Below are positions 1,564 through 32,781 of a stretch of 32,814 bases of DNA, in pieces. The position numbers and the translations under genes are program-made. Position 1 is the stretch's first letter, and every line of letters starts with the position of its first letter. This DNA comes from an uncultured Actinomycetes bacterium. GTDB taxonomy: Bacteria; Actinomycetota; Geothermincolia; Geothermincolales; RBG-13-55-18. Under the pieces are notes generated by a model. The model was not told where the DNA came from. It ran no database searches and saw only the letters and a list, made by a program, of their open reading frames with translations. The DNA is taken from contig CAKZMC010000152.1 of the NCBI GenBank assembly GCA_937128055.1, positions 1 through 32,814 of the forward strand, given 5' to 3'.

Positions 1564-2817
1564 TCACCTCAGCGACTCGAGGAACGCCTCCAGGCGCGTG
1601 GAGACCTGGCCTTCCTGGTATTCGCGGTCGTCGACGCAGTCCCCGTCGATGATGAGCGTGGGCACCCCCACCCGCTGCAGGGCCTTCTTCACCAGGGGCG
1701 CCCCCCCGCAGCTCTGGCGGCATCCCCAGTGGTTGTAGTGGATGGCGCCGTCCACGCGGTACTCCTCCGCCAGGCGCACCAGGTGCGAAGCCCTCCTCTC
1801 CACGGGGCCCACCAGGAAATGGCCGCCCACCTTGGCGGCCAGGGAGCCCAAGGGGTCACGCGGGTCCATGGCCTCCCAGGTGGCGTGGGTATATTCCTCG
1901 CATACCAGGCGGGCGCCGTGCTCTCTCAGCAGATGGAAGATCGCCTGGGAGTACCAGGGCTTGAGATGCATCCACATGATGCGGAGCGAGCTGTCCCCCC
2001 GGCTGCCCCTCTCGCGCAGCTCCTCGGCGAGGAGGCGGTAGAACTCCTCCCCCGCCGGCGAGCCCATGCAGCCGGCGAGCACGCTCACGTTGCCCATGGC
2101 TTCGTCGCCGTCGAGGGTGCAGTCGTCCCGTTTGCGCATTTCCTCCACCCGCCGCAGGTGGCCCAGTGCCCGGTTGGAGAGCTCCACCGCCTCGGAGAGC
2201 CCCTCCATCATCTCCCTCTCCGTCCGTCCGCACAAGCCGGCCATGGTGCGCGCCGCCTCCGCCATCTGGCCGGCTAAGAGGTTCATTCCGTCCTCCCTGC
2301 CCGGAAGGGGCACGTCGAGGACGAACTGCGGGGCGCCGTAGAGGTCGGACGCGAAGCCGAAGGAGAGAGGGGCGGAATCGCAGGGATAGTTGACGGCAAG
2401 GAGGAGGTCGGGTTCGGGAAGGAAGCCTTCCATGGCGCACCCGAGCATGCAGCGGTGGTAGGAGCAGGCGTCGGACGGGAACTCCTCCTCGGCCGCGTGG
2501 TCTATGAAGCGGGGGGCCAGCCCCGCGGATGCCACCACGGCCGCGGCCATCTCAGGGTAGAAGGGTATGCATCCTGTGCCGAGGACAAGTTCGCTGGGGA
2601 CCAGCAGGTTGCACCACACCACGGGCGCGCGCCGCAGGTAGGCGTCACGGGTGGCGCGGATGAAGTAGGCGAGGGAGACGCGGTCCGCTTTCCAGTGTGG
2701 CCGGTTGAGGGGGGAGAGGGCCAGCCCTTCCACCGTCTTCCAGAAGAGGCGCGAGCGGAAGGTGGCCGGCGAGAGCCTGTCCAGGTAGCGCTCCTTGATC
2801 TGCTCGAGAAGCTCCAT
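1564..2817 (-). CDS. 2-hydroxyacyl-CoA dehydratase / benzoyl-CoA reductase-type subunit (HgdB/BcrB-like)
   Basis: This 417-residue protein matches the 2-hydroxyglutaryl-CoA dehydratase D-component family, whose members hold a [4Fe-4S] or double-cubane cluster and do low-potential electron chemistry on acyl-CoAs or small substrates. Cysteines lie where cluster ligands are expected: C83 in GTGCIPF, C118/C123/C127 in one cluster, C146 in NYPCD, and late GCRQSCGG followed by DGDCVD. The GCRQSCGG...DGDCVDDR block is typical of the HgdB-like branch that also includes double-cubane proteins. The ATG follows GAGGTG six bases upstream. It lies downstream of a paralogue (61-base gap), so the two are probably co-transcribed and may form a heterodimer. 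No ATPase activator is seen in the window, so the substrate cannot be named. Confidence 0.85.
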   Translation of the reverse strand: MELLEQIKERYLDRLSPATFRSRLFWKTVEGLALSPLNRPHWKADRVSLAYFIRATRDAYLRRAPVVWCNLLVPSELVLGTGCIPFYPEMAAAVVASAGLAPRFIDHAAEEEFPSDACSYHRCMLGCAMEGFLPEPDLLLAVNYPCDSAPLSFGFASDLYGAPQFVLDVPLPGREDGMNLLAGQMAEAARTMAGLCGRTEREMMEGLSEAVELSNRALGHLRRVEEMRKRDDCTLDGDEAMGNVSVLAGCMGSPAGEEFYRLLAEELRERGSRGDSSLRIMWMHLKPWYSQAIFHLLREHGARLVCEEYTHATWEAMDPRDPLGSLAAKVGGHFLVGPVERRASHLVRLAEEYRVDGAIHYNHWGCRQSCGGAPLVKKALQRVGVPTLIIDGDCVDDREYQEGQVSTRLEAFLESLR

Positions 2818-2878
2818 GTCCTCACCTCATGACCGTGCCCGCGTGCCGCGCCGCAAGCATGACGGAACGGCGCACTTA

Positions 2879-3892
2879 TCAGGAAATCATTTCCAGGAAA
2901 GCCTCCACGCGCGTAAGCACCTGCCCGGCGTGCCCATCGGCGTAATCGCTCTCCAGCCGCAGGACGGGGATGCCCTCCCGCCGCAGCCTCTCCCGCGTGC
3001 GCGGAAAGTCGTACAGGTAGGAGTCGCAGAACTTGAGAGAGGCGTACACGACCGCACTCGCGCCCGCCTGGCGAGCGTTCTCCGCCAGGATGCGGCAGCG
3101 CCTCTCCGCGTCGAGCATGCGCGCGCAGGGGGGGCGCTCGAGATAGGCGGCGGCCAGCCCACCGATGATTTCCTCCACGCTTTCCCCTTCCGCCAGGGTG
3201 GAGGCCGCGAAGGCGCGGTCTCCGTTGCAGAGGTCGGCCCAGACCACCCGCGCCCCCGCCTTCTCCAGGAGGGAGACCATGCCCGCGGGGTTGAGGAGGT
3301 TCCCGGTGAGCAGGACGGGGATCTCGCGGCCCGCTTTCGCCACCGGGTGAGCGCACGCCGCCGCCCCGCCGCCCTCGGCGCTCCCCGGCGGGGACTGGAA
3401 ACTCTGCGCCAGGCGCAGCCGCGCCGCGCCGCTCGCCTCTCCCGCCAGGCGCAGGTAGCTGCGGCGCAGCTCTTCCCTTTCCCGGCAGGCGGCAGCGAGG
3501 TCGTCGCGGGTTATCTCCCTCCCCCGGAAAGTGCGTAGGGCCGCGAGCAGTTGCCGGTATTCCCCCGCCAGGACGCGCTCCCCTGCCTTCCCCGCGTTGC
3601 GAGGCAGGTCGAGCAGGAAGACGAAGTCCTCAGGGAAGAGTTCCTTCCAGGCGTCGTAGAGTCGGCGCATGCCATCGCAGGAGTTGACGAAGACGGCGTG
3701 ATGGGGCCCACTCCCCTGCATGGCCTGCGCCAGGCAGGCCCGCACGTAGGGGCATATGGCGGGGTGCAGCAGGGCGTCGGCATCGTCGATGCGGCTTGGG
3801 TCCCCGAAATAGCGCACGGGTTCCAGGCCCGCGGCCAGCAGCAGCTCGACGGGGGCATAGGCGCAGAACCAGGCTATGCGGTCATCTCCCAT
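2879..3892 (-). CDS. Second 2-hydroxyacyl-CoA dehydratase-type subunit
   Basis: This 337-residue protein is from the same family as the downstream gene but belongs to a different branch. It opens with WFCAYAPVELLLAAG, the usual N-terminal 'C-Y-P-E' region, then has C47 and C53 (AICPYVRAC), C72 in NSCDGMRRL, and near the end KFCDSYLYDFP, which resembles the FCD...DYP motif of HgdB and benzoyl-CoA reductase subunits. The final line RVEAFLEM is also shared with the neighbour. It is somewhat shorter than typical subunits of about 380-430 residues. Start: ATG at 3892, with AGGGTAG about 8 bases upstream. It is first in a two-gene minus-strand unit. The pair resembles the two dissimilar subunits of a dehydratase or reductase, but the enzyme activity is unassigned. 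Confidence 0.82.
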   Translation of the reverse strand: MGDDRIAWFCAYAPVELLLAAGLEPVRYFGDPSRIDDADALLHPAICPYVRACLAQAMQGSGPHHAVFVNSCDGMRRLYDAWKELFPEDFVFLLDLPRNAGKAGERVLAGEYRQLLAALRTFRGREITRDDLAAACREREELRRSYLRLAGEASGAARLRLAQSFQSPPGSAEGGGAAACAHPVAKAGREIPVLLTGNLLNPAGMVSLLEKAGARVVWADLCNGDRAFAASTLAEGESVEEIIGGLAAAYLERPPCARMLDAERRCRILAENARQAGASAVVYASLKFCDSYLYDFPRTRERLRREGIPVLRLESDYADGHAGQVLTRVEAFLEMIS

Positions 3893-4609: not shown

Positions 4610-5794
4610 ATGCTGCCGGTGAAAATAGCGGAAGGGGTGCACTGGGTGGGCGCCCTCGACCCGCAGCTGCGCGTCTTCGACATCATCATGAAAGCGGACC
4701 ACGGCACCACCTACAACGCGTACCTCTTGACCGGGGGGGACAAGGTAGCGGTGCTGGATACGGTCAAGGCGCCCCATTACGAGGAATTCATCGCGAACAT
4801 ACGTTCCCTGGTGGATCCCCAGGATATCGCTTACGTGGTGGTCAATCACACCGAGCCGGACCATTCCGGTTCCCTGGCCCGCCTGCTCGCGGAGGCCCCC
4901 GGAGCACGCGTGGTATGCGACCGACAGTGCCGCAACTTCGTGAAGAACATCCTCAACCGGGATGTGGACCCCCTGCTGGTGCAGGACGGAGACGCTTTGG
5001 ACCTGGGCAAGGGGGTGGAGCTTTCCTTCGTCCACGCCCCCTTCCTGCACTGGCCGGACACCATGTTCACCTACCATAAAAAGGAAGGGGTTCTCTTCAC
5101 CTGCGATTTCCTGGGCGCGCACTACTGCGACGACCGCATCTTCGACGACCTGGTGGACGACTATTCACATGCCTTCGAGTACTATTACCAGGTCATCTTC
5201 CGCCCCTTCAAGAAATACGTGCTGGAAGCCATAGACAAGATACAGGGCCTGGACATCAGGATCATCGCCCCCAGTCACGGCCCCGTCCTGCGCACCGACC
5301 CCCTGGCCTACGTGGAGAGATACAGGGAGTGGAGTTCGCGGCCGGCTCCCGGCGTTGCCAAGCTGCTCCTGGTGTTCTATGCCAGCGCCTACGGCAACAC
5401 CGCCATGCTGGCGGAGAAGATCGCCGAGGGAGCCCGCGCGGAGGGGGCGAAGGTGGCGGTCATGGACGTCGCCGCCACGGAGCTGGGGCTGATGATAGAC
5501 CGCATCGAGGCGGCGGACGGCATCGCCGTGGGATCGGCGACCATCAACGCGGACGCGGTGGAGCCGGTATGGTATCTCCTCTCCCACCTGGCCACGCTCA
5601 ACCTCAGGGGCAAGGTGGGGGCGTCCTTCGGGTCCTACGGCTGGAGCGGCGAGGCGCCCAAGCTCATCGCCGAGCGCCTGAAGGGGCTGAAGTTCAAGGT
5701 GAGCGAGGAGCCCCTGCGGGTCAACCTGGTGCCCACGGAGGAAGACCTGGGGCAGGCCGTCGAGTTCGGGAGGCGCATCGCCCGCTCGCTGTGA
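4610..5794 (+). CDS. fprA: A-type flavoprotein (FprA; rubredoxin:oxygen/NO oxidoreductase)
   Basis: A 394-residue flavodiiron protein that reduces O2 to water or NO to N2O using electrons from rubredoxin. The N-terminal metallo-beta-lactamase-like half has the diiron motif HTEPDH (H80, E82, D84, H85), a further His in FLHWPDT, Asp in CDFLGAH and His in APSHGP, so all iron ligands appear present. The C-terminal flavodoxin domain starts near residue 250 (FYASAYGNTAMLA) and has GSATINAD and FGSYGWSGE loops for FMN. No rubredoxin or flavin reductase domain is fused; the separate upstream rubredoxin fills that role. The ATG at 4610 follows GGGAGG. Usual family role: oxygen and nitrosative stress defence in anaerobes. 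Confidence 0.95.
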   Translation: MLPVKIAEGVHWVGALDPQLRVFDIIMKADHGTTYNAYLLTGGDKVAVLDTVKAPHYEEFIANIRSLVDPQDIAYVVVNHTEPDHSGSLARLLAEAPGARVVCDRQCRNFVKNILNRDVDPLLVQDGDALDLGKGVELSFVHAPFLHWPDTMFTYHKKEGVLFTCDFLGAHYCDDRIFDDLVDDYSHAFEYYYQVIFRPFKKYVLEAIDKIQGLDIRIIAPSHGPVLRTDPLAYVERYREWSSRPAPGVAKLLLVFYASAYGNTAMLAEKIAEGARAEGAKVAVMDVAATELGLMIDRIEAADGIAVGSATINADAVEPVWYLLSHLATLNLRGKVGASFGSYGWSGEAPKLIAERLKGLKFKVSEEPLRVNLVPTEEDLGQAVEFGRRIARSL

Positions 5795-24476: not shown

Positions 24477-26126
<1,650 letters not shown>

Positions 26127-26506: not shown

Positions 26507-27730
26507 TTATGCCGTGTAAAGGTGGAAACCTCGCCCGCTCTTGCGGCCCAGGAGCCCCGCCGCCACCATGCGCTTGAGCAGGGGAGGGGAGAGGAACTTG
26601 GGGTCGCCGGTTTCCTCGTGGAGCCGGCGCGACAGCTCGAGCACCGTGTCCAGCCCGAGGTTATCCGCTATCTCCAGCTGTCCCAGGGGGAGGTTGAAGC
26701 CCAGGCGGGAGGCCTTGTCCACGTCCTCCGGGGTGGCCACGCCCGCCTCCACCAGGGAGACGGCCTCAAGGATGGCGGGGAGCAGCAGGCGGTTGAGGAT
26801 GGTTTCCCGTCGCTTGCTACGCGCCTCCTCCGTCTCGTCCGCGCCCCGGACGGGAGGGAAGTAGCTCTCGCGCTTCCCGCTCGCGTAATCGTAGAAGCCG
26901 CGGCCACCCTTACGGCCCAGGAGCCCCGCCGCCACCATGCGCTTGAGAAGGGGAGGGGGGAGGAACTTGGGGTCGCGGGTGTCCTCGTAGATGGCCATGG
27001 CGGCGCGGCAGCCCACGTCCAGCCCCGCGTTGTCGATGATCTGCATGGGCCCCACCCCTGCCTCGTAGCCGCCGGTGGCGCGGTCAATGTCCTCCGGAGT
27101 GGCCAGCCCCTCCTCGATCATGCGCACCGCCTCGATGTTGGTGGGGATGTTAACGCGGTTGGCCACGAAGCCGGCATGGTCCTTGTAAACGAGGACGGTC
27201 TCCTTGCCCAGGCTGCGCGCCCAGGCGTCGGCCGCGCGCATGGTCTCCTCGGAGGTCAGCACCCCACGGATGATCTCCACCAGGCGCATGAGGGGGACGG
27301 GCCCGAAGAAGTGCACGCCCGCCACCCGCTCCGGCCGTGAGGTGGCGGAGGCCAGGGATGAGATGGGGATGGCGGAGGTGTTGGTGCAGAGGACGGTACG
27401 GGAGGGGCAGATGCGGTCCAGGCGGGAGAAGGCCTCCTTTTTCAACTCCGGGTCCTCGGGCACCGCCTCGATGACCAGGTCCGCCTCGCAGGCGTCCTCC
27501 ATCTCGGTGGTGGTGGCGATGTTGGCGAAGGCCGCGTCATACTGTTCCCCGCTCACCTTTCCCTTGGCGAGGAGCCTGCCCAGGGAGCTCTCGATGGCCT
27601 CCATGCCCGCCTGCAGGCGCTCCTCGCTCACGTCGCACATGGTGACCCGGTAACCGGCGCAGGCGGACACCTGGGCGATGCCGTTGCCCATGTATCCCGC
27701 CCCCAGCACGAAGACCTTTTCCGGGAACAC
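26507..27730 (-). CDS. 3-hydroxyacyl-CoA dehydrogenase with duplicated C-terminal domain
   Basis: A 407-residue NAD-dependent enzyme that oxidises 3-hydroxyacyl-CoA to 3-ketoacyl-CoA. The Rossmann motif is LGAGYMGNGIA (9-19), with EAVPED, NTSAIPIS and the catalytic His region GVHFFGPVPLMRLVEII. The C-terminal 3HCDH domain occurs twice in tandem; each copy ends with (G/R)DPKFL.PPLLKRMVAAGLLGRK.GRGF. The matching DNA (26544-26607 and 26913-26976) is identical at 62 of 64 bases although the rest of the two domains has diverged. GTG at 27730 is the start, with AAGGAGGT seven bases upstream. It lies 380 bases upstream of the acyl-CoA ligase gene on the same strand, but that gene has its own promoter. 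Confidence 0.95.
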   Translation of the reverse strand: MFPEKVFVLGAGYMGNGIAQVSACAGYRVTMCDVSEERLQAGMEAIESSLGRLLAKGKVSGEQYDAAFANIATTTEMEDACEADLVIEAVPEDPELKKEAFSRLDRICPSRTVLCTNTSAIPISSLASATSRPERVAGVHFFGPVPLMRLVEIIRGVLTSEETMRAADAWARSLGKETVLVYKDHAGFVANRVNIPTNIEAVRMIEEGLATPEDIDRATGGYEAGVGPMQIIDNAGLDVGCRAAMAIYEDTRDPKFLPPPLLKRMVAAGLLGRKGGRGFYDYASGKRESYFPPVRGADETEEARSKRRETILNRLLLPAILEAVSLVEAGVATPEDVDKASRLGFNLPLGQLEIADNLGLDTVLELSRRLHEETGDPKFLSPPLLKRMVAAGLLGRKSGRGFHLYTA

Positions 27731-27945: not shown

Positions 27946-28659
27946 ATGGGCACGGGCGAGATAATAACCATCGGGACGGCCACCGCCAACTGCTACCTGG
28001 TGCTGGGGGAGATTCCCTACCTGGTGGACACCAACGTGCCGAAGGCGAGGCGCAGGATCATGGCGGCTCTTTCCGGGCACGGTCTCTCCGCCGGCGACCT
28101 CAGGTACATACTCATCACCCATTACCACTACGATCACACGGGATGCCTGGCGGAGCTGAAAAGGCTTTCCGGCGCCCGCGTGGCGGCGGGGGAGAAGGAC
28201 GCGGCGGTGATTTGCGGCGAAAGCCCGCAGCGGGGCCCCGGTGATATATCCCCCGCCGGGCGCATGTTGCGCAAGGTCCCGGCCTCCTTCCTGGAGAAGT
28301 ACCATCACTTCGACGCCTGCGAGGTTGATATGGCCCTGCGAGAGGGAGACGCCATCGAGGAGCTGGGGCTCGAGGTGCTGGAGTTGCCCGGCCACACGGA
28401 GGGCGGGGTGGCCTTCTATCAGCGCGAGAGGAAGCTGGCCTTCATCGGTGACCTGGTATCCAATTTTTTCCATCGACCCGGGCCGCCTTTCCTCTCCTTC
28501 AGCTACGACAAGGGTGCCATCCTGCAATCCATGCGGCGGCTGGGCGACCTGGACCTGGATTATGCCTATCCCGGGCACGGTTCGGTCATCGGGCCGGGCG
28601 CCGCGGAGAAGATACGCGCCCTGGCCGCGAAGCTCGCTTCCCGCTGGGGATTGGCCTGA
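27946..28659 (+). CDS. MBL-fold metallo-hydrolase
   Basis: A 237-residue metallo-beta-lactamase-fold hydrolase. The metal motif is HYHYDH (H59, H61, D63, H64), with further ligands in LPGHTEGG, GDLVSNF and YPGHGSVIG, so both metal sites appear complete. The layout resembles glyoxalase II and other thioester or phospho-ester hydrolases; the exact substrate is unknown. It has no signal peptide. The ATG at 27946 follows AAGGAGGTGACGGG, an ideal ribosome-binding site. It is divergent from the 3-hydroxyacyl-CoA dehydrogenase, so a thioesterase-like role on acyl-CoA intermediates is possible but only inferred from position. Confidence 0.9.
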   Translation: MGTGEIITIGTATANCYLVLGEIPYLVDTNVPKARRRIMAALSGHGLSAGDLRYILITHYHYDHTGCLAELKRLSGARVAAGEKDAAVICGESPQRGPGDISPAGRMLRKVPASFLEKYHHFDACEVDMALREGDAIEELGLEVLELPGHTEGGVAFYQRERKLAFIGDLVSNFFHRPGPPFLSFSYDKGAILQSMRRLGDLDLDYAYPGHGSVIGPGAAEKIRALAAKLASRWGLA

Positions 28660-29026: not shown

Positions 29027-29527
29027 CTATTTGATGATTTCGAAGTGGGAGACGTCGTGGATGCTGCCGGTGCGCTCCTCCGCCCACACGGCGCGCAAGC
29101 GCGACCCCACCACGAGGTTCTTCTCGTCGTACTCGTTACAGTAATGCATCATGCGCGTGCTGGCGCCGTCCAGGTTCACCCAGATGGAGGTGAAGGGCAC
29201 CTGCATCATGCCGCCGTGGTTGGGGTCGATGTAGGGGAAGCGCACGATGGTGAACCCCTCCAGCGTACCCTCCGGCCCCACTTCCACCCACTCGTCCATC
29301 TCCAGGAAGCAGCGCCCGCAGACCTGGCGGGGCAGCATGTAGACCGCGCCGCACTGGCTGCACTTGGTGGCCAGGAAGCGCTGCTCCTTGAGCCCGGCCA
29401 GGAACTTGCTCCAGCAGTAGCCGAGGTGCCAGTGGAAATCGTACTCCAGGTGGCCGGACTCGAGGGTCAGGAGCTCATAGCCCTCAGGGGTATGGGTCCG
29501 CTTGCGCTTGTCCTCGTAAAGCCCCAT
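29027..29527 (-). CDS. DUF35 zinc-ribbon/OB-fold protein
   Basis: About 166 residues. An N-terminal helical stretch is followed by a zinc ribbon (CSQCG ... CGRCF) and an OB-fold domain (GTLEGFTIVRFPYIDPNHGGMMQVPFTSIWVNLDG to the C-terminus). DUF35 proteins bind CoA-type substrates and form complexes with thiolase-like proteins, as in archaeal acetoacetyl-CoA thiolase and the ChsH2/Ltp2 steroid aldolase. The ATG at 29527 has GAAGGGTGA upstream and is chosen over a GTG at 29545. It is the last gene of the four-gene minus-strand operon and follows the thiolase-like gene by 27 bases, which points to a tight partnership. Confidence 0.9.
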   Translation of the reverse strand: MGLYEDKRKRTHTPEGYELLTLESGHLEYDFHWHLGYCWSKFLAGLKEQRFLATKCSQCGAVYMLPRQVCGRCFLEMDEWVEVGPEGTLEGFTIVRFPYIDPNHGGMMQVPFTSIWVNLDGASTRMMHYCNEYDEKNLVVGSRLRAVWAEERTGSIHDVSHFEIIK

Positions 29528-29554
29528 GATATTCACCCTTCTCACCTCCTCCGC

Positions 29555-30709
29555 TCAGGGCAGGTCCGCGCCCAGGATCATCACGTCCGACCAGCTGCAG
29601 CCGCCGAAGCCGGTTGCCAGGGCCTTTCTCACGTTTTCCACCTGGCGTGCTCCCGCCCTGCCCATGATCTGCCACGCGGCCTCTCCCACGCGGATGAGGC
29701 CGGTGGCCCCTATGGGATTGGTGGAGATCACGCCCCCCGAGGGGTTGATGGGCAGCTCGCCGTCCATCTGGAAGGTCCCCTTGCGCACCAGCTTGGGGGC
29801 CTCTCCGTGCTCGCAGAACCACAGCGAATCCATCCATTTCACCCCGCAGGTTGAGGCGGGGAGGTAGAGCTCCGCCACGTCGAACTCCTTGAGCGGGTTG
29901 GTGATTCCTGCCAGCTTGTAGGCCTCGGCGGAAGCGCGCTCCAGGGTGGGCATGAAGGTCCACTCCAGGTCCCCGAAGTGCGTGTAGTCGTGGCGCACCA
30001 CCGAGGCGTGCACCCAGGCGGGTTTGGCACAGAGCCTCTTGGCCTTCTCCTCCACTGCGAAGATGACCGCGCAGGCGCCGTCGGAGCGCGGGCACATGTC
30101 CAGGAACTTGATGGGATAGGATAGCATGGGGGACTTGAGCACGTCCTCCACCGTCACCTGCTGACGGGAATGGGCGTAGGGGTTGTTGAGGGCGTTGTTG
30201 CGGTCCCGCGCCGCCACGATGGCCGCGTCCTCCTCGGTGGCCCCGTAGGCCTTCATGTACATGGAGTACTCGGTGGCCAGGGGCCCTATGGCGCCGGCGA
30301 AGAAGTCCCTTTCCAGGGCAGGGTTGGAGCAGGTGGCGATGGCCGCCTGCGTGTCCGACTCCGAGTTCTTCTCCCAGCCCACCGCCAGCACCACGTCGAA
30401 GAGGCCGCTGGCGCAGTGGTAGTAACCACAGGCGCCCACCGTGGTGCCGGTGGTGCCGCCGGTGGTCACCTTGAAGACCGGCTTCATGCAGGCGCCCAGC
30501 CCGTCCACCGCCCACATGTCCACGTAGTTGATGTTCTCGAAGTGGTCCATGTTGCCGATGACCATGGCGTCGATGTCGGCGATGGTCAGCGCGGCGTCAT
30601 CCAGGGCTCGGGTGACGGCCTCGGCGATGATCTCCACGCCGGAGGCGTCCAGGCGCTTGGCGGCGTGGTGGGTCTGTCCTACCCCGATGATTCCTACTCT
30701 TTTACCCAT
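29555..30709 (-). CDS. Thiolase-like protein (lipid-transfer/Ltp type), second of two
   Basis: A 384-residue thiolase-superfamily protein. It starts GKRVGIIGVGQTHH and has EAVTRALDDAALTIADIDAMVIG, a middle RSDGACAVIFAVEEKAKRL, then LPINPSGGVISTNPIGATGL. The usual nucleophile loop (C-G-S-G, near residue 85-90) reads VTTGGTTGTTVGACG: no cysteine at the expected place, with C further on. The catalytic His motif GHP.G is replaced by TNPIG. The late GFGGCSWSD has a cysteine roughly where the second catalytic cysteine is found. The active site is therefore not a standard thiolase site. The ATG at 30709 is followed directly by the motif MGKRVGI. It is 14 bases from the preceding paralogue and likely forms a heteromer with it. 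Confidence 0.88.
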   Translation of the reverse strand: MGKRVGIIGVGQTHHAAKRLDASGVEIIAEAVTRALDDAALTIADIDAMVIGNMDHFENINYVDMWAVDGLGACMKPVFKVTTGGTTGTTVGACGYYHCASGLFDVVLAVGWEKNSESDTQAAIATCSNPALERDFFAGAIGPLATEYSMYMKAYGATEEDAAIVAARDRNNALNNPYAHSRQQVTVEDVLKSPMLSYPIKFLDMCPRSDGACAVIFAVEEKAKRLCAKPAWVHASVVRHDYTHFGDLEWTFMPTLERASAEAYKLAGITNPLKEFDVAELYLPASTCGVKWMDSLWFCEHGEAPKLVRKGTFQMDGELPINPSGGVISTNPIGATGLIRVGEAAWQIMGRAGARQVENVRKALATGFGGCSWSDVMILGADLP

Positions 30710-30723
30710 GGCGCATCACCTCC

Positions 30724-31866
30724 TCATCTGCCCAGGATCCACACGCAGTGGGACTGGCCGCACATGCCGTTGACGCCGTGGGCCAGGGCCGTCTTCACCT
30801 CGCCTGCCTGGTGCTCGCCGGCCTCTCCCCTTATCTGCAGGGCGCATTCCGCCAGCTCCGCCAGGCCGGCCACCTGCACGGCGTGGGCGGAGAGCCTGCC
30901 GCCGGAGGGGTTGACCGGGAGCCTGCCCTCGAAGTCGAACCAGCCGCGCTCCAGGTACTCGCAACCCCTGCCGTCCTCGCAGACCCCCAGCCCCTCGAGC
31001 CATAGCGGCTCCATGTAGGAAAAGGCGTCGTAGACCTCGGCCACGTCGATCTCCCTAAGGGGATCGTTAATGCCGGCCATGGCGTAGGCCCGCCTGGCGG
31101 CGTCCTTGAGGGCACGGGTGTCCGCCAGGTCGCGGTCCCCCAGGTGGTGGGCGTCGGAGCAGTGCCCCACGCCCAGCAGCCAGACGCGTTTCTTATGCGT
31201 GGAAAGCTTCTTCGCCTGCCTCTCCGCCGCCAGCACGAGCGCCGCCGCCCCGTCGCTCACCGGGGAGCAATCGAGGAGCTTCAGCGGGTCGGCTAACTTG
31301 CGGGAGTTCATCACGTCCTCCACCGTGATCTCCATGGGGAAGAGGGCTAGGGGGTTGCGCATGGCGTTCCCGTGGTTCTTCACCGACACCAGGGCGAACT
31401 GCTCCTCCTTGAGGGCGTACCTCGTCATGTAACGCCGCGCCTGCAGGGCGGCGGAGGAAACGGCGTCGATCCCCAGTCTCCTCTCTACCAGGGGGTCGAA
31501 GGCGCAGTTGGTGATGCCGTTCATGTTGCTCTCCGTGCCCTTGTGGTGGGCGCAGACGAGGGTCACGCCGAAGCTCCCGGAGAGGATGCGCATCATCCCG
31601 TAGAGGGCGCCGAAGGTGCCGTCCCCCTCCACGGTGGTGATGTCCTTGCCGAAGGCCCCGGAGGCGTCGGAGATGGCCATGCTGGAGATGGTGCGCCCGT
31701 CCCAGAAGTCGCTGGAGACGGAGACCACGTTGTCCACCTCGTCCCTGGTGATGCCGGCGTCCTCCAGAGCCCTCCTGGTGACGTCGTAGACGAGCTCCGC
31801 GAAGGTCTCCGGCTTGTTCTGCTCGTACTTGGTCTGGGCCACGCCGATGATGGCGACTCTTTCCAT
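30724..31866 (-). CDS. Thiolase-like protein (lipid-transfer/Ltp type), first of two
   Basis: About 380 residues, paralogous to the next gene. It begins MERVAIIGVAQTKYEQ and has a middle VSDGAAALVLAAERQAKKL. It then has DVAEVYDAFSYMEPLW, with the tyrosine-rich block typical of Ltp proteins, and LPVNPSGGRLSAHAVQVAGL, where a histidine is present. The nucleophile loop reads VEGDGTFGALYGMM, without cysteine. Steroid aldolases such as Ltp2 also lack the cysteine and act as retro-aldolases with DUF35 partners, so a C-C lyase or acyl-transfer role is possible. The ATG at 31866 follows GGGGTGAT; a GTG at 31875 would add three residues. It lies 19 bases from the DUF35 gene upstream. Confidence 0.88.
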   Translation of the reverse strand: MERVAIIGVAQTKYEQNKPETFAELVYDVTRRALEDAGITRDEVDNVVSVSSDFWDGRTISSMAISDASGAFGKDITTVEGDGTFGALYGMMRILSGSFGVTLVCAHHKGTESNMNGITNCAFDPLVERRLGIDAVSSAALQARRYMTRYALKEEQFALVSVKNHGNAMRNPLALFPMEITVEDVMNSRKLADPLKLLDCSPVSDGAAALVLAAERQAKKLSTHKKRVWLLGVGHCSDAHHLGDRDLADTRALKDAARRAYAMAGINDPLREIDVAEVYDAFSYMEPLWLEGLGVCEDGRGCEYLERGWFDFEGRLPVNPSGGRLSAHAVQVAGLAELAECALQIRGEAGEHQAGEVKTALAHGVNGMCGQSHCVWILGR

Positions 31867-31885
31867 ATCAATCACCCCGCTTCCC

Positions 31886-32350
31886 TCATGCCAGGGGCCG
31901 GAAATGCCTGATGTCGAGGATGTTCCCCTCGCGCTCGTCCTCCAGCACGGCCTCCACGCGCATGCCCACCTTCACCTTCTCCGGCTCGACGTCGCCGATG
32001 AAGTGGAGCAGGCAGGTGTCGGCGCCGTCCATGCGCACCAGGCCGTAGACGAAGGGAGCCTGGCGGGGGTGCAGCGCGGGCTCGCTGTAGCGCACCACCG
32101 TGTAGCTCTCCACCGTGCCGGTGCCCGGTAGCTCCACCCAGTCATGGGGTTCCCCGTAGCAGTGGATGCACTTGGCCTTGGGGGGGACGAATACCGCGCC
32201 ACAGGAGGGACAGCGGTTGGCCCAGATCTTGCCGTTATCGCGCAGCTCGCAGTAGAAACGGCTCAGGGTGCTGCCCACCGTCCAGGAGTAGGGGACGCTT
32301 ATCTTCCCCTCGTGTACCAGGACCTGCACGTCCTTTTTCCAGTCGCCCAT
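31886..32350 (-). CDS. DUF35 zinc-ribbon/OB-fold protein, first gene of the thiolase-like operon
   Basis: About 154 residues with the same layout as the last gene of the operon: helical N-terminus, zinc ribbon (CPSCG ... CIHCYGE) and an OB-fold (GTGTVESYTVVRYSEPALHPRQAPFVYGLVRMDGADTCLLHFI...). The two DUF35 proteins differ clearly, so each probably pairs with one thiolase-like subunit. The ATG at 32350 follows GGGAGGTGA; an in-frame ATG at 32407 would add 19 polar residues and lacks such a site. The gene order DUF35 - thiolase-like - thiolase-like - DUF35 is symmetric, and all gaps are 14 to 27 bases, so the four are almost surely one operon. Confidence 0.9.
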   Translation of the reverse strand: MGDWKKDVQVLVHEGKISVPYSWTVGSTLSRFYCELRDNGKIWANRCPSCGAVFVPPKAKCIHCYGEPHDWVELPGTGTVESYTVVRYSEPALHPRQAPFVYGLVRMDGADTCLLHFIGDVEPEKVKVGMRVEAVLEDEREGNILDIRHFRPLA

Positions 32351-32781
32351 ATCCTCACCTCCCTCACGCGTAACGGGCTGCCTTGATTGTTTCTCCGTTT
32401 CGGACATGCATCACCCCCTCCCATGGCCCGCGCCTCGCCATGCGGGCATCCACCCGGCTAACGGTTCGGTGCCGGGCGCTCCGCCGGGCCTCGCGGTCGC
32501 GTGGACTCCGTTCCCGCGCGAGGCGTCCTCCGTTTTCCCGTGAAAGCGGAAGCTCCATCCGTTACACGTGCGCGCAAGATTTACGTGAGAGCCGGAGCGC
32601 CCGCCATACTGCCTGCCGCGTGCCGGTGCCGCATGCCGGTAAGGGCCTTTCGCAATGTATTAAGCAAGCGTTAACATTCTAATACTTTTCGCCCCTGCCG
32701 TCACCCGTGAGAGGATAAGCCGCGGCGGGCAGCGCCTCGACGTCTCTCGGGGGAGGGCTTCGCGCACGAGGGAGCGCCGTA
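32351..32781. other. Intergenic region upstream of the DUF35/thiolase operon
   Basis: 430 bases. The only AT-rich island is at 32655-32690. Read on minus it holds TAATAC (32667-32662) as a possible -10 without a good -35, which would give a leader of about 300 bases. The rest is GC-rich; frames across it are Arg-rich and without start signals. Confidence 0.3.

Follow-up and report, generated by a model that had tools for sequence, protein, structure and literature searches.

What reaction might be carried out by a gene cluster that encodes two thiolase-like proteins, neither of which has the nucleophilic Cys of a thiolase? The question is raised by contig C152 (GenBank CAKZMC010000152.1; 32,814 nucleotides, hereafter the window) of a 2.7 Mb Actinomycetota genome, which is close to those of Candidatus Solincola and Geothermincola (88–94% identity in ThlB). 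Four open reading frames (ORFs) on the minus strand, separated by 10, 14 and 9 bp, encode in order a DUF35 protein (D1), the thiolase-like proteins ThlA and ThlB, and a second DUF35 protein (D2). Pfam assigns OB_ChsH2_C and zf-ChsH2 domains to the outer genes and Thiolase_N and Thiolase_C_1 to the inner ones, bearing out the symmetric operon described in an initial annotation of this DNA. That annotation ended the operon at 32350, an internal ATG of D1; although the longest ORF begins at 32407, the internal ATG is preceded by a good ribosome site (GGGAGGTGAGGAT-ATG) and is probably the true start. The reading that we favor, and consider reasonably likely, is that the quartet forms a single heteromeric enzyme akin to Ltp3-Ltp4: ThlA and ThlB would make a heterodimer, each subunit probably with its own DUF35 protein, and the complex would act as an aldol lyase on a hindered, probably beta-branched 3-hydroxyacyl-coenzyme A (CoA).

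When aligned with thiolases from the window's genome that have the Cys, both subunits depart from thiolases and SCP2 thiolases at catalytic positions. The nucleophilic Cys is replaced by Gly (Gly86 in ThlA, Gly85 in ThlB), in motifs as quoted in the initial annotation, and the His of HDxF is Tyr in both; at the position of the GHP His, ThlA has His and ThlB has Asn. The initial claim that the thiolase site is incomplete in each subunit holds. Conservation was counted over 75 rows for ThlA and 91 for ThlB, with the protein of the window entering each count twice, as reference and as row. In ThlA, Gln374 is present in all 75 rows, Asp85 and Gly86 in 74, Cys372 in 73, Cys377 in 69 and Tyr282 in 60. 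In ThlB, Thr83, Gly85, Gly88, Tyr282, Asn331 and Arg340 are invariant (91/91), Pro284 is kept in 89 rows, and the loop has an invariant signature, T-x-G-x-x-G. Because each protein has its own invariant residue set, ThlA and ThlB are best described as differently specialized subunits, neither of them degenerate. Two candidate residues were rejected. The ThlA His near the NPSGG block, previously thought to be retained (His331, in SAHAVQ), is His in 51 rows and Asn in 19, too variable for a retained catalytic residue; and the only strictly kept Cys of ThlB, Cys206, lies in the usual C-P-x-S-D-G stretch and is not a convincing substitute nucleophile. AlphaFold2 single-chain models predict confident thiolase folds for ThlA and ThlB (mean predicted local distance difference test scores of 91.3 and 87.4), with archaeal and SCP2 thiolases as the closest solved folds and Ltp2 and Sal lower in the list. 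No NCBIfam model reaches its cut-off; the top model for ThlB is PRK08313, at 378 bits versus a cut-off of 514.

The arrangement is widespread. The window's genome contains three quartets, on contigs C152, C60 and C47, and ThlB-like matches at E<=1e-40 are found in 40 of 59 relatives, among them every one of the 30 that belong to its class. A GTDB species contig scan yielded 242 relatives; individual loci are designated here by L labels. Among the best 80, bacterial hosts include Actinomycetota, Chloroflexota, Thermodesulfobacteriota, Myxococcota-labelled genomes, Bacillota, Poribacteria, Spirochaetota and Elusimicrobiota, and archaeal hosts include Asgard-type archaea and Candidatus Methanolliviera. 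All four genes are present in the order D1-A-B-D2 at 54 of the 60 loci with room for them, and the four zinc-ribbon Cys residues (CxxC..CxxC) are kept in every D1 and D2 of 64 complete quartets. Over the same 64, correlations between the pairwise distances of the proteins A, B, D1 and D2 have r of 0.82–0.89, compared with at most 0.32 in permutations, part of this correlation being due to shared descent. Because the loss of Cys is common to three paralogous quartets of one genome and to homologues in many phyla, we regard it as beyond chance and not as local decay. The earlier proposal of a heteromeric C–C lyase or ligase fits two distinct Cys-less subunits that are kept as a unit with a DUF35 protein each, a C–C lyase being the activity with the best support. 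Five loci contain lone ThlB genes that are ~80% identical to that of the window and keep its active-site residues (L061:10001-11155, L062:6931-8127, L063:10001-11155, L064:871-2025 and L066:10001-11155); neither ThlA nor DUF35 was detected beside them. The window's own genome also encodes two more single thiolase-like proteins with the Cys-to-Gly change, each with one adjoining DUF35 gene (L010:2666-3889 on C153 and L013:1775-2965 on C18).

The closest known relatives of the quartet, as judged by gene order, residues and phylogeny, are Ltp4 and Ltp3 with Rv3521, a pair from sterol clusters whose genes are required by bacteria for cutting branched plant-sterol side chains. In Streptomyces, Tsukamurella and Nonomuraea, relatives located on plasmids encode a double-DUF35 protein with two OB_ChsH2_C stretches, followed by thiolase-like proteins of 339–359 and 384–390 aa; this pair matches PRK07937 and PRK08313, with scores that exceed the cut-offs in Streptomyces and Tsukamurella. 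In a mycobacterium-like locus, L145, a double DUF35, Ltp4 and Ltp3 adjoin members of the EchA19 and Rv3520c families (both over cut-off), a trio and neighborhood that we take to be the gene order Rv3516-Rv3526 with Rv3521, ltp4 and ltp3. ThlB is 39% identical to the L145 Ltp3 and ThlA 27% identical to its Ltp4, and both halves of its double DUF35 can be aligned with D1 and D2. The double DUF35 protein (L145:8468-9508) does not have the zinc-ribbon Cys residues kept by all quartet DUF35 proteins. In a 49-row tree (LG+C20), ThlA joins Ltp4 of Tsukamurella, Streptomyces and Nonomuraea with support of 100/100, and ThlB is nearest Ltp3, with weak support for the whole B/Ltp3 group (85/37), which includes long-branch rows, among them the Haloterrigena A row. 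Sub-branches of A and B match, the C47-type and L110q2 pairs being closest to Ltp4 and Ltp3, and both branches stand apart from Ltp2, SCP2, AACT and BbsB. The tree and the L145 comparison thus point away from the kin first suggested, Ltp2 or Bbs. Since the closest kin are genetically characterized, membership in a characterized thiolase family, named initially as grounds for refutation, applies in part.

Published accounts of Ltp3-Ltp4 suggest the reaction. The pair is described as a heteromeric aldol-lyase that cuts C24–C25 after side-chain carboxylation and hydration (PMC6678751), and as aldol lyases for C24-branched sterols in two other papers (PMC6593523, PMC7807495); all three cite Wilbrink 2012. 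No biochemistry or structure of Ltp3-Ltp4 was found in this analysis, the credit for heteromeric aldol cleavage being on genetic grounds. In Ltp2 and Sal, aldolases of thiolase fold that bind DUF35, the Tyr that stands in for the HDxF His serves as catalytic base, and the hydroxyl is contacted by the backbone of a Gly (PMC12329534). By analogy, ThlB Tyr282 would be the catalytic base, the counterpart of Ltp2 Tyr294 and Sal Tyr302, and would act with Asn331, which falls near Ltp2 Tyr344 and Sal Gln352 in an alignment that is gapped there for Ltp2. From ThlA, Asp85 and the C372-G-Q374 loop would contribute partner residues or those of an oxyanion hole. With Asp85 and Gln374, ThlA may complete either a joint site or a separate second one. 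The reaction would be a retro-aldol C–C cleavage, possibly reversible, of a 3-hydroxyacyl-CoA that is beyond ordinary beta-oxidation and a Cys thiolase. We infer the heterodimer, the allotment of one DUF35 protein to each subunit, the catalytic roles and the substrate class from these comparisons, residue geometry at the site being read from alignment.

The surroundings of the quartet suggest what its substrates may be. The ligase, dehydrogenase and metallo-beta-lactamase-fold (MBL) hydrolase named as neighbors in the initial annotation (Table 1) are conserved within the family: homologues of the dehydrogenase (66–78% identical) adjoin the quartet or ThlB-D2 in L047-L050, L054, L067 and L068, homologues of the acyl-CoA synthetase (78–90%) lie nearby in L045-L050, L067 and L068, and homologues of the hydrolase (66–73%) have the same relative position in L047, L054 and L067. 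Elsewhere, in neighborhoods read from mechanically called ORFs, genes for acyl-CoA dehydrogenase, biotin carboxylase, carboxyltransferase, enoyl-CoA hydratase and BKACE lie beside the quartet in Bacillota (L105, L106, L108) and Chloroflexota (L072, L074), and in part in L070, L081 and L083. In this set a beta-branched enoyl-CoA would be carboxylated, hydrated and cut by a lyase, after which the beta-keto acid would be used; the quartet would fill the missing step that resembles 3-hydroxy-3-methylglutaryl-CoA (HMG-CoA) lyase. HMG-CoA lyase over cut-off is absent from four of the five genomes of L105, L106, L108, L072 and L074, which are incomplete metagenome-assembled genomes (MAGs). In Syntrophomonadaceae/Bacillota MAGs the genes form a compact, operon-like run (L106:546-16727 and L108:8-15072) in the order acyl-CoA dehydrogenase, CoA ligase, MaoC, quartet, acyl-CoA dehydrogenase, biotin carboxylase, carboxyltransferase, enoyl-CoA hydratase, BKACE and CoA ligase, preceded by TetR in L106 only; by its gene content the run looks like a full branched-acyl-CoA pathway.

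Table 1. Coordinates of the quartet and its conserved neighbors in the window
Feature	Coordinates	Strand	Length (aa)	Pfam	Remarks
D1, DUF35 protein	31886..32407	-	173	PF01796 (E 6.9e-19), PF12172	First gene; zinc ribbon and OB fold
ThlA, thiolase-like, Ltp4-like	30724..31875	-	383	PF22691/PF00108	Cys>Gly86, Asp85, YDAF, C-G-Q-S-H-C loop
ThlB, thiolase-like, Ltp3-like	29555..30709	-	384	PF22691/PF00108	TTGGTTG loop (Cys>Gly85), Tyr282-x-Pro284, Asn331
D2, DUF35 protein	29027..29545	-	172	PF01796 (E 3e-10), PF12172	Last gene of quartet
MBL-fold hydrolase	27946..28659	+		PF00753	Between quartet and dehydrogenase, opposite strand
3-hydroxyacyl-CoA dehydrogenase, NAD-type	26507..27730	-		PF02737/PF00725	
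Acyl-CoA synthetase (AMP-binding)	24477..26126	-		PF00501/PF13193	

Carboxyltransferase (PF01039) was not found in the window's 99% complete genome, is present in 12 of 14 controls, and was not found in 18 of 29 relatives, many of which are drafts. The window's genome therefore has no recognizable acetyl-CoA carboxylase carboxyltransferase; a carboxylation-linked substrate was rejected for this organism, in which the substrate must therefore arise by another route. Other genes were noted in passing. The window contains a tandem pair of 2-hydroxyglutaryl-CoA dehydratase D-component genes (1564-3892) with an ODP/flavodoxin protein (4610-5794). Adjoining the second quartet of the same genome, on C60, is a gene for an 881 aa phytoene-desaturase-like flavoprotein fused to ferredoxin reductase and 2Fe-2S domains (L012:11809-14454), and phytoene-desaturase-like genes also lie by quartets in L085, L104, L111, L113 and L117.

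Several points weigh against an Ltp3-Ltp4-like aldol lyase. The activity of the quartet is predicted, and that of Ltp3-Ltp4 has genetic support, taken here from later papers; support for the entire B/Ltp3 group is weak; no residue is assigned as general acid, and ThlA Tyr282 is kept in only 60 of 75 rows. In addition, the L108 genome does encode HMG-CoA lyase, the carboxylation route is inapplicable in the window's genome, and a 3-keto substrate would better match the neighboring 3-hydroxyacyl-CoA dehydrogenase. The last point favors a thiolase or Claisen-type acyltransferase with a relocated Cys, as the dehydrogenase would yield 3-ketoacyl-CoA. The nucleophile would be ThlA Cys372, which, like Cys377, is well conserved and lies in a C-terminal loop (NG-x-C-G-Q-S-H-C) near the second catalytic Cys of classical thiolases, modelled between the last two strands. 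Such an enzyme is nevertheless unlikely: Ala occupies that site in the Tsukamurella and mycobacterium-like Ltp4, Asn takes the place of the GHP base His of thiolases in ThlB, and often does so in ThlA, and a separate classical thiolase adjoins the quartet at many loci. The loss of classical catalytic residues might also suggest a non-catalytic acyl-CoA carrier or scaffold that serves the neighboring dehydrogenase and ligase, in keeping with the original proposal of DUF35 as an acyl-CoA deliverer (PMC2954200); strict conservation at the catalytic loops over many phyla argues for chemistry, and we consider this role highly improbable.

A further reading concerns the division of labor between the subunits. 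As a variant of the aldol-lyase reading, ThlB alone may perform an Ltp2-like aldol cleavage with ThlA as a structural or substrate-gating partner, which is plausible, if short of probable. Invariant Tyr282 and Asn331 occur only in ThlB, the lone ThlB genes keep the same residues, and an inert partner has a precedent in PhlA of PhlABC (PMC2954200). However, near-invariant residues are also found in ThlA (Asp85 and Gln374), and the distances of ThlA parallel those of ThlB. The direction of the reaction could also be reversed: PhlC and MucABC are among the matches to the quartet proteins and models, and aldol reactions are reversible, so that an aldol or Claisen condensation making branched acyl-CoA, as in these multi-component acyltransferases, can be envisaged. 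Synthesis is quite unlikely, as PhlC/MucABC-type catalysts keep their Cys (9skm is named as a C88S mutant) and the neighbors of the quartet look catabolic (CoA ligases, acyl-CoA dehydrogenases, BKACE and a TetR/FadR-type regulator). Extending the aldol-lyase reading, we tentatively offer the rather doubtful proposal of a hitherto undescribed, anaerobe-wide heteromeric aldol lyase, its active site shared by two Cys-less thiolase-fold subunits, that would replace HMG-CoA-lyase-type enzymes in degrading beta-branched (e.g., isoprenoid) acyl-CoAs. In some hosts a biotin-dependent carboxylation would precede its step and BKACE would follow it, and the fused-DUF35 version would serve aerobic actinomycetes for phytosterol side chains.

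Since the quartet is unfused and widespread and its residue signatures are strict, it is a tractable enzyme for testing the claim of heteromeric aldol cleavage by Ltp3-Ltp4. If the activity is confirmed, many proteins of anaerobic bacteria and archaea that are annotated as acetyl-CoA acetyltransferase or thiolase would be lyases, and the pathways reconstructed there for branched acids and hydrocarbons would change.

Other thiolase-fold systems with DUF35 proteins share parts of this architecture, and membership in the Ltp2, SCP2, BbsAB, archaeal AACT and PhlABC families was rejected by residues, score cut-offs or tree. The Cys thiolase-HMG-CoA synthase system (6esq, 6et9), with its DUF35 bridge, is among the closest solved folds but consists of a canonical Cys thiolase together with HMG-CoA synthase; contig C90 of the window's genome encodes a separate system of this type. 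BbsAB, the benzoylsuccinyl-CoA thiolase, also combines a thiolase with DUF35, but has a single thiolase that keeps Cys (VQSACSAG), HDAF and GHP and groups with SCP2 thiolases; the quartet, without that Cys, scores 146 and 126 bits in the NCBIfam equivalog test, versus a cut-off of 750. PhlABC and MucABC resemble the quartet in having two thiolase-superfamily proteins, one inert, and a DUF35 protein, but are synthetic, with a Cys-bearing catalytic subunit and one DUF35 gene; the quartet has no nucleophilic Cys, two DUF35 genes and weak matches only to PhlABC. Ltp2-ChsH2 and Sal-Shy share the thiolase fold with DUF35, the missing nucleophile and Tyr at the HDxF position, but are homodimeric aldolases encoded by one gene on a separate tree branch; neither YDHF with Tyr344 nor YDCY with Cys304 is found in ThlA (YDAF, H/N331) or ThlB (Y-L-P-A, N331). 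The Ltp3-Ltp4-Rv3521 system comes closest, with an adjacent Cys-less pair in which Ltp4 (A) precedes Ltp3 (B) and with two DUF35 domains; B/Ltp3 has T-x-G-x-x-G, Tyr-x-Pro and Asn, and A/Ltp4 has Asp and Gln. No sterol catabolism cluster lies beside the quartet (neighbors are CoA ligase, 3-hydroxyacyl-CoA dehydrogenase, MBL and alpha/beta hydrolase), the rest of the genome not having been searched for steroid genes. The DUF35 domains are fused in Rv3521, whereas the window and the 64 complete quartets have two separate zinc-bearing genes, ThlA has 383 aa versus ~355 for Ltp4, and the hosts are rich in anaerobes. On these comparisons, we regard the quartet as a new, unfused, mostly anaerobic branch of the Ltp3-Ltp4 kind.

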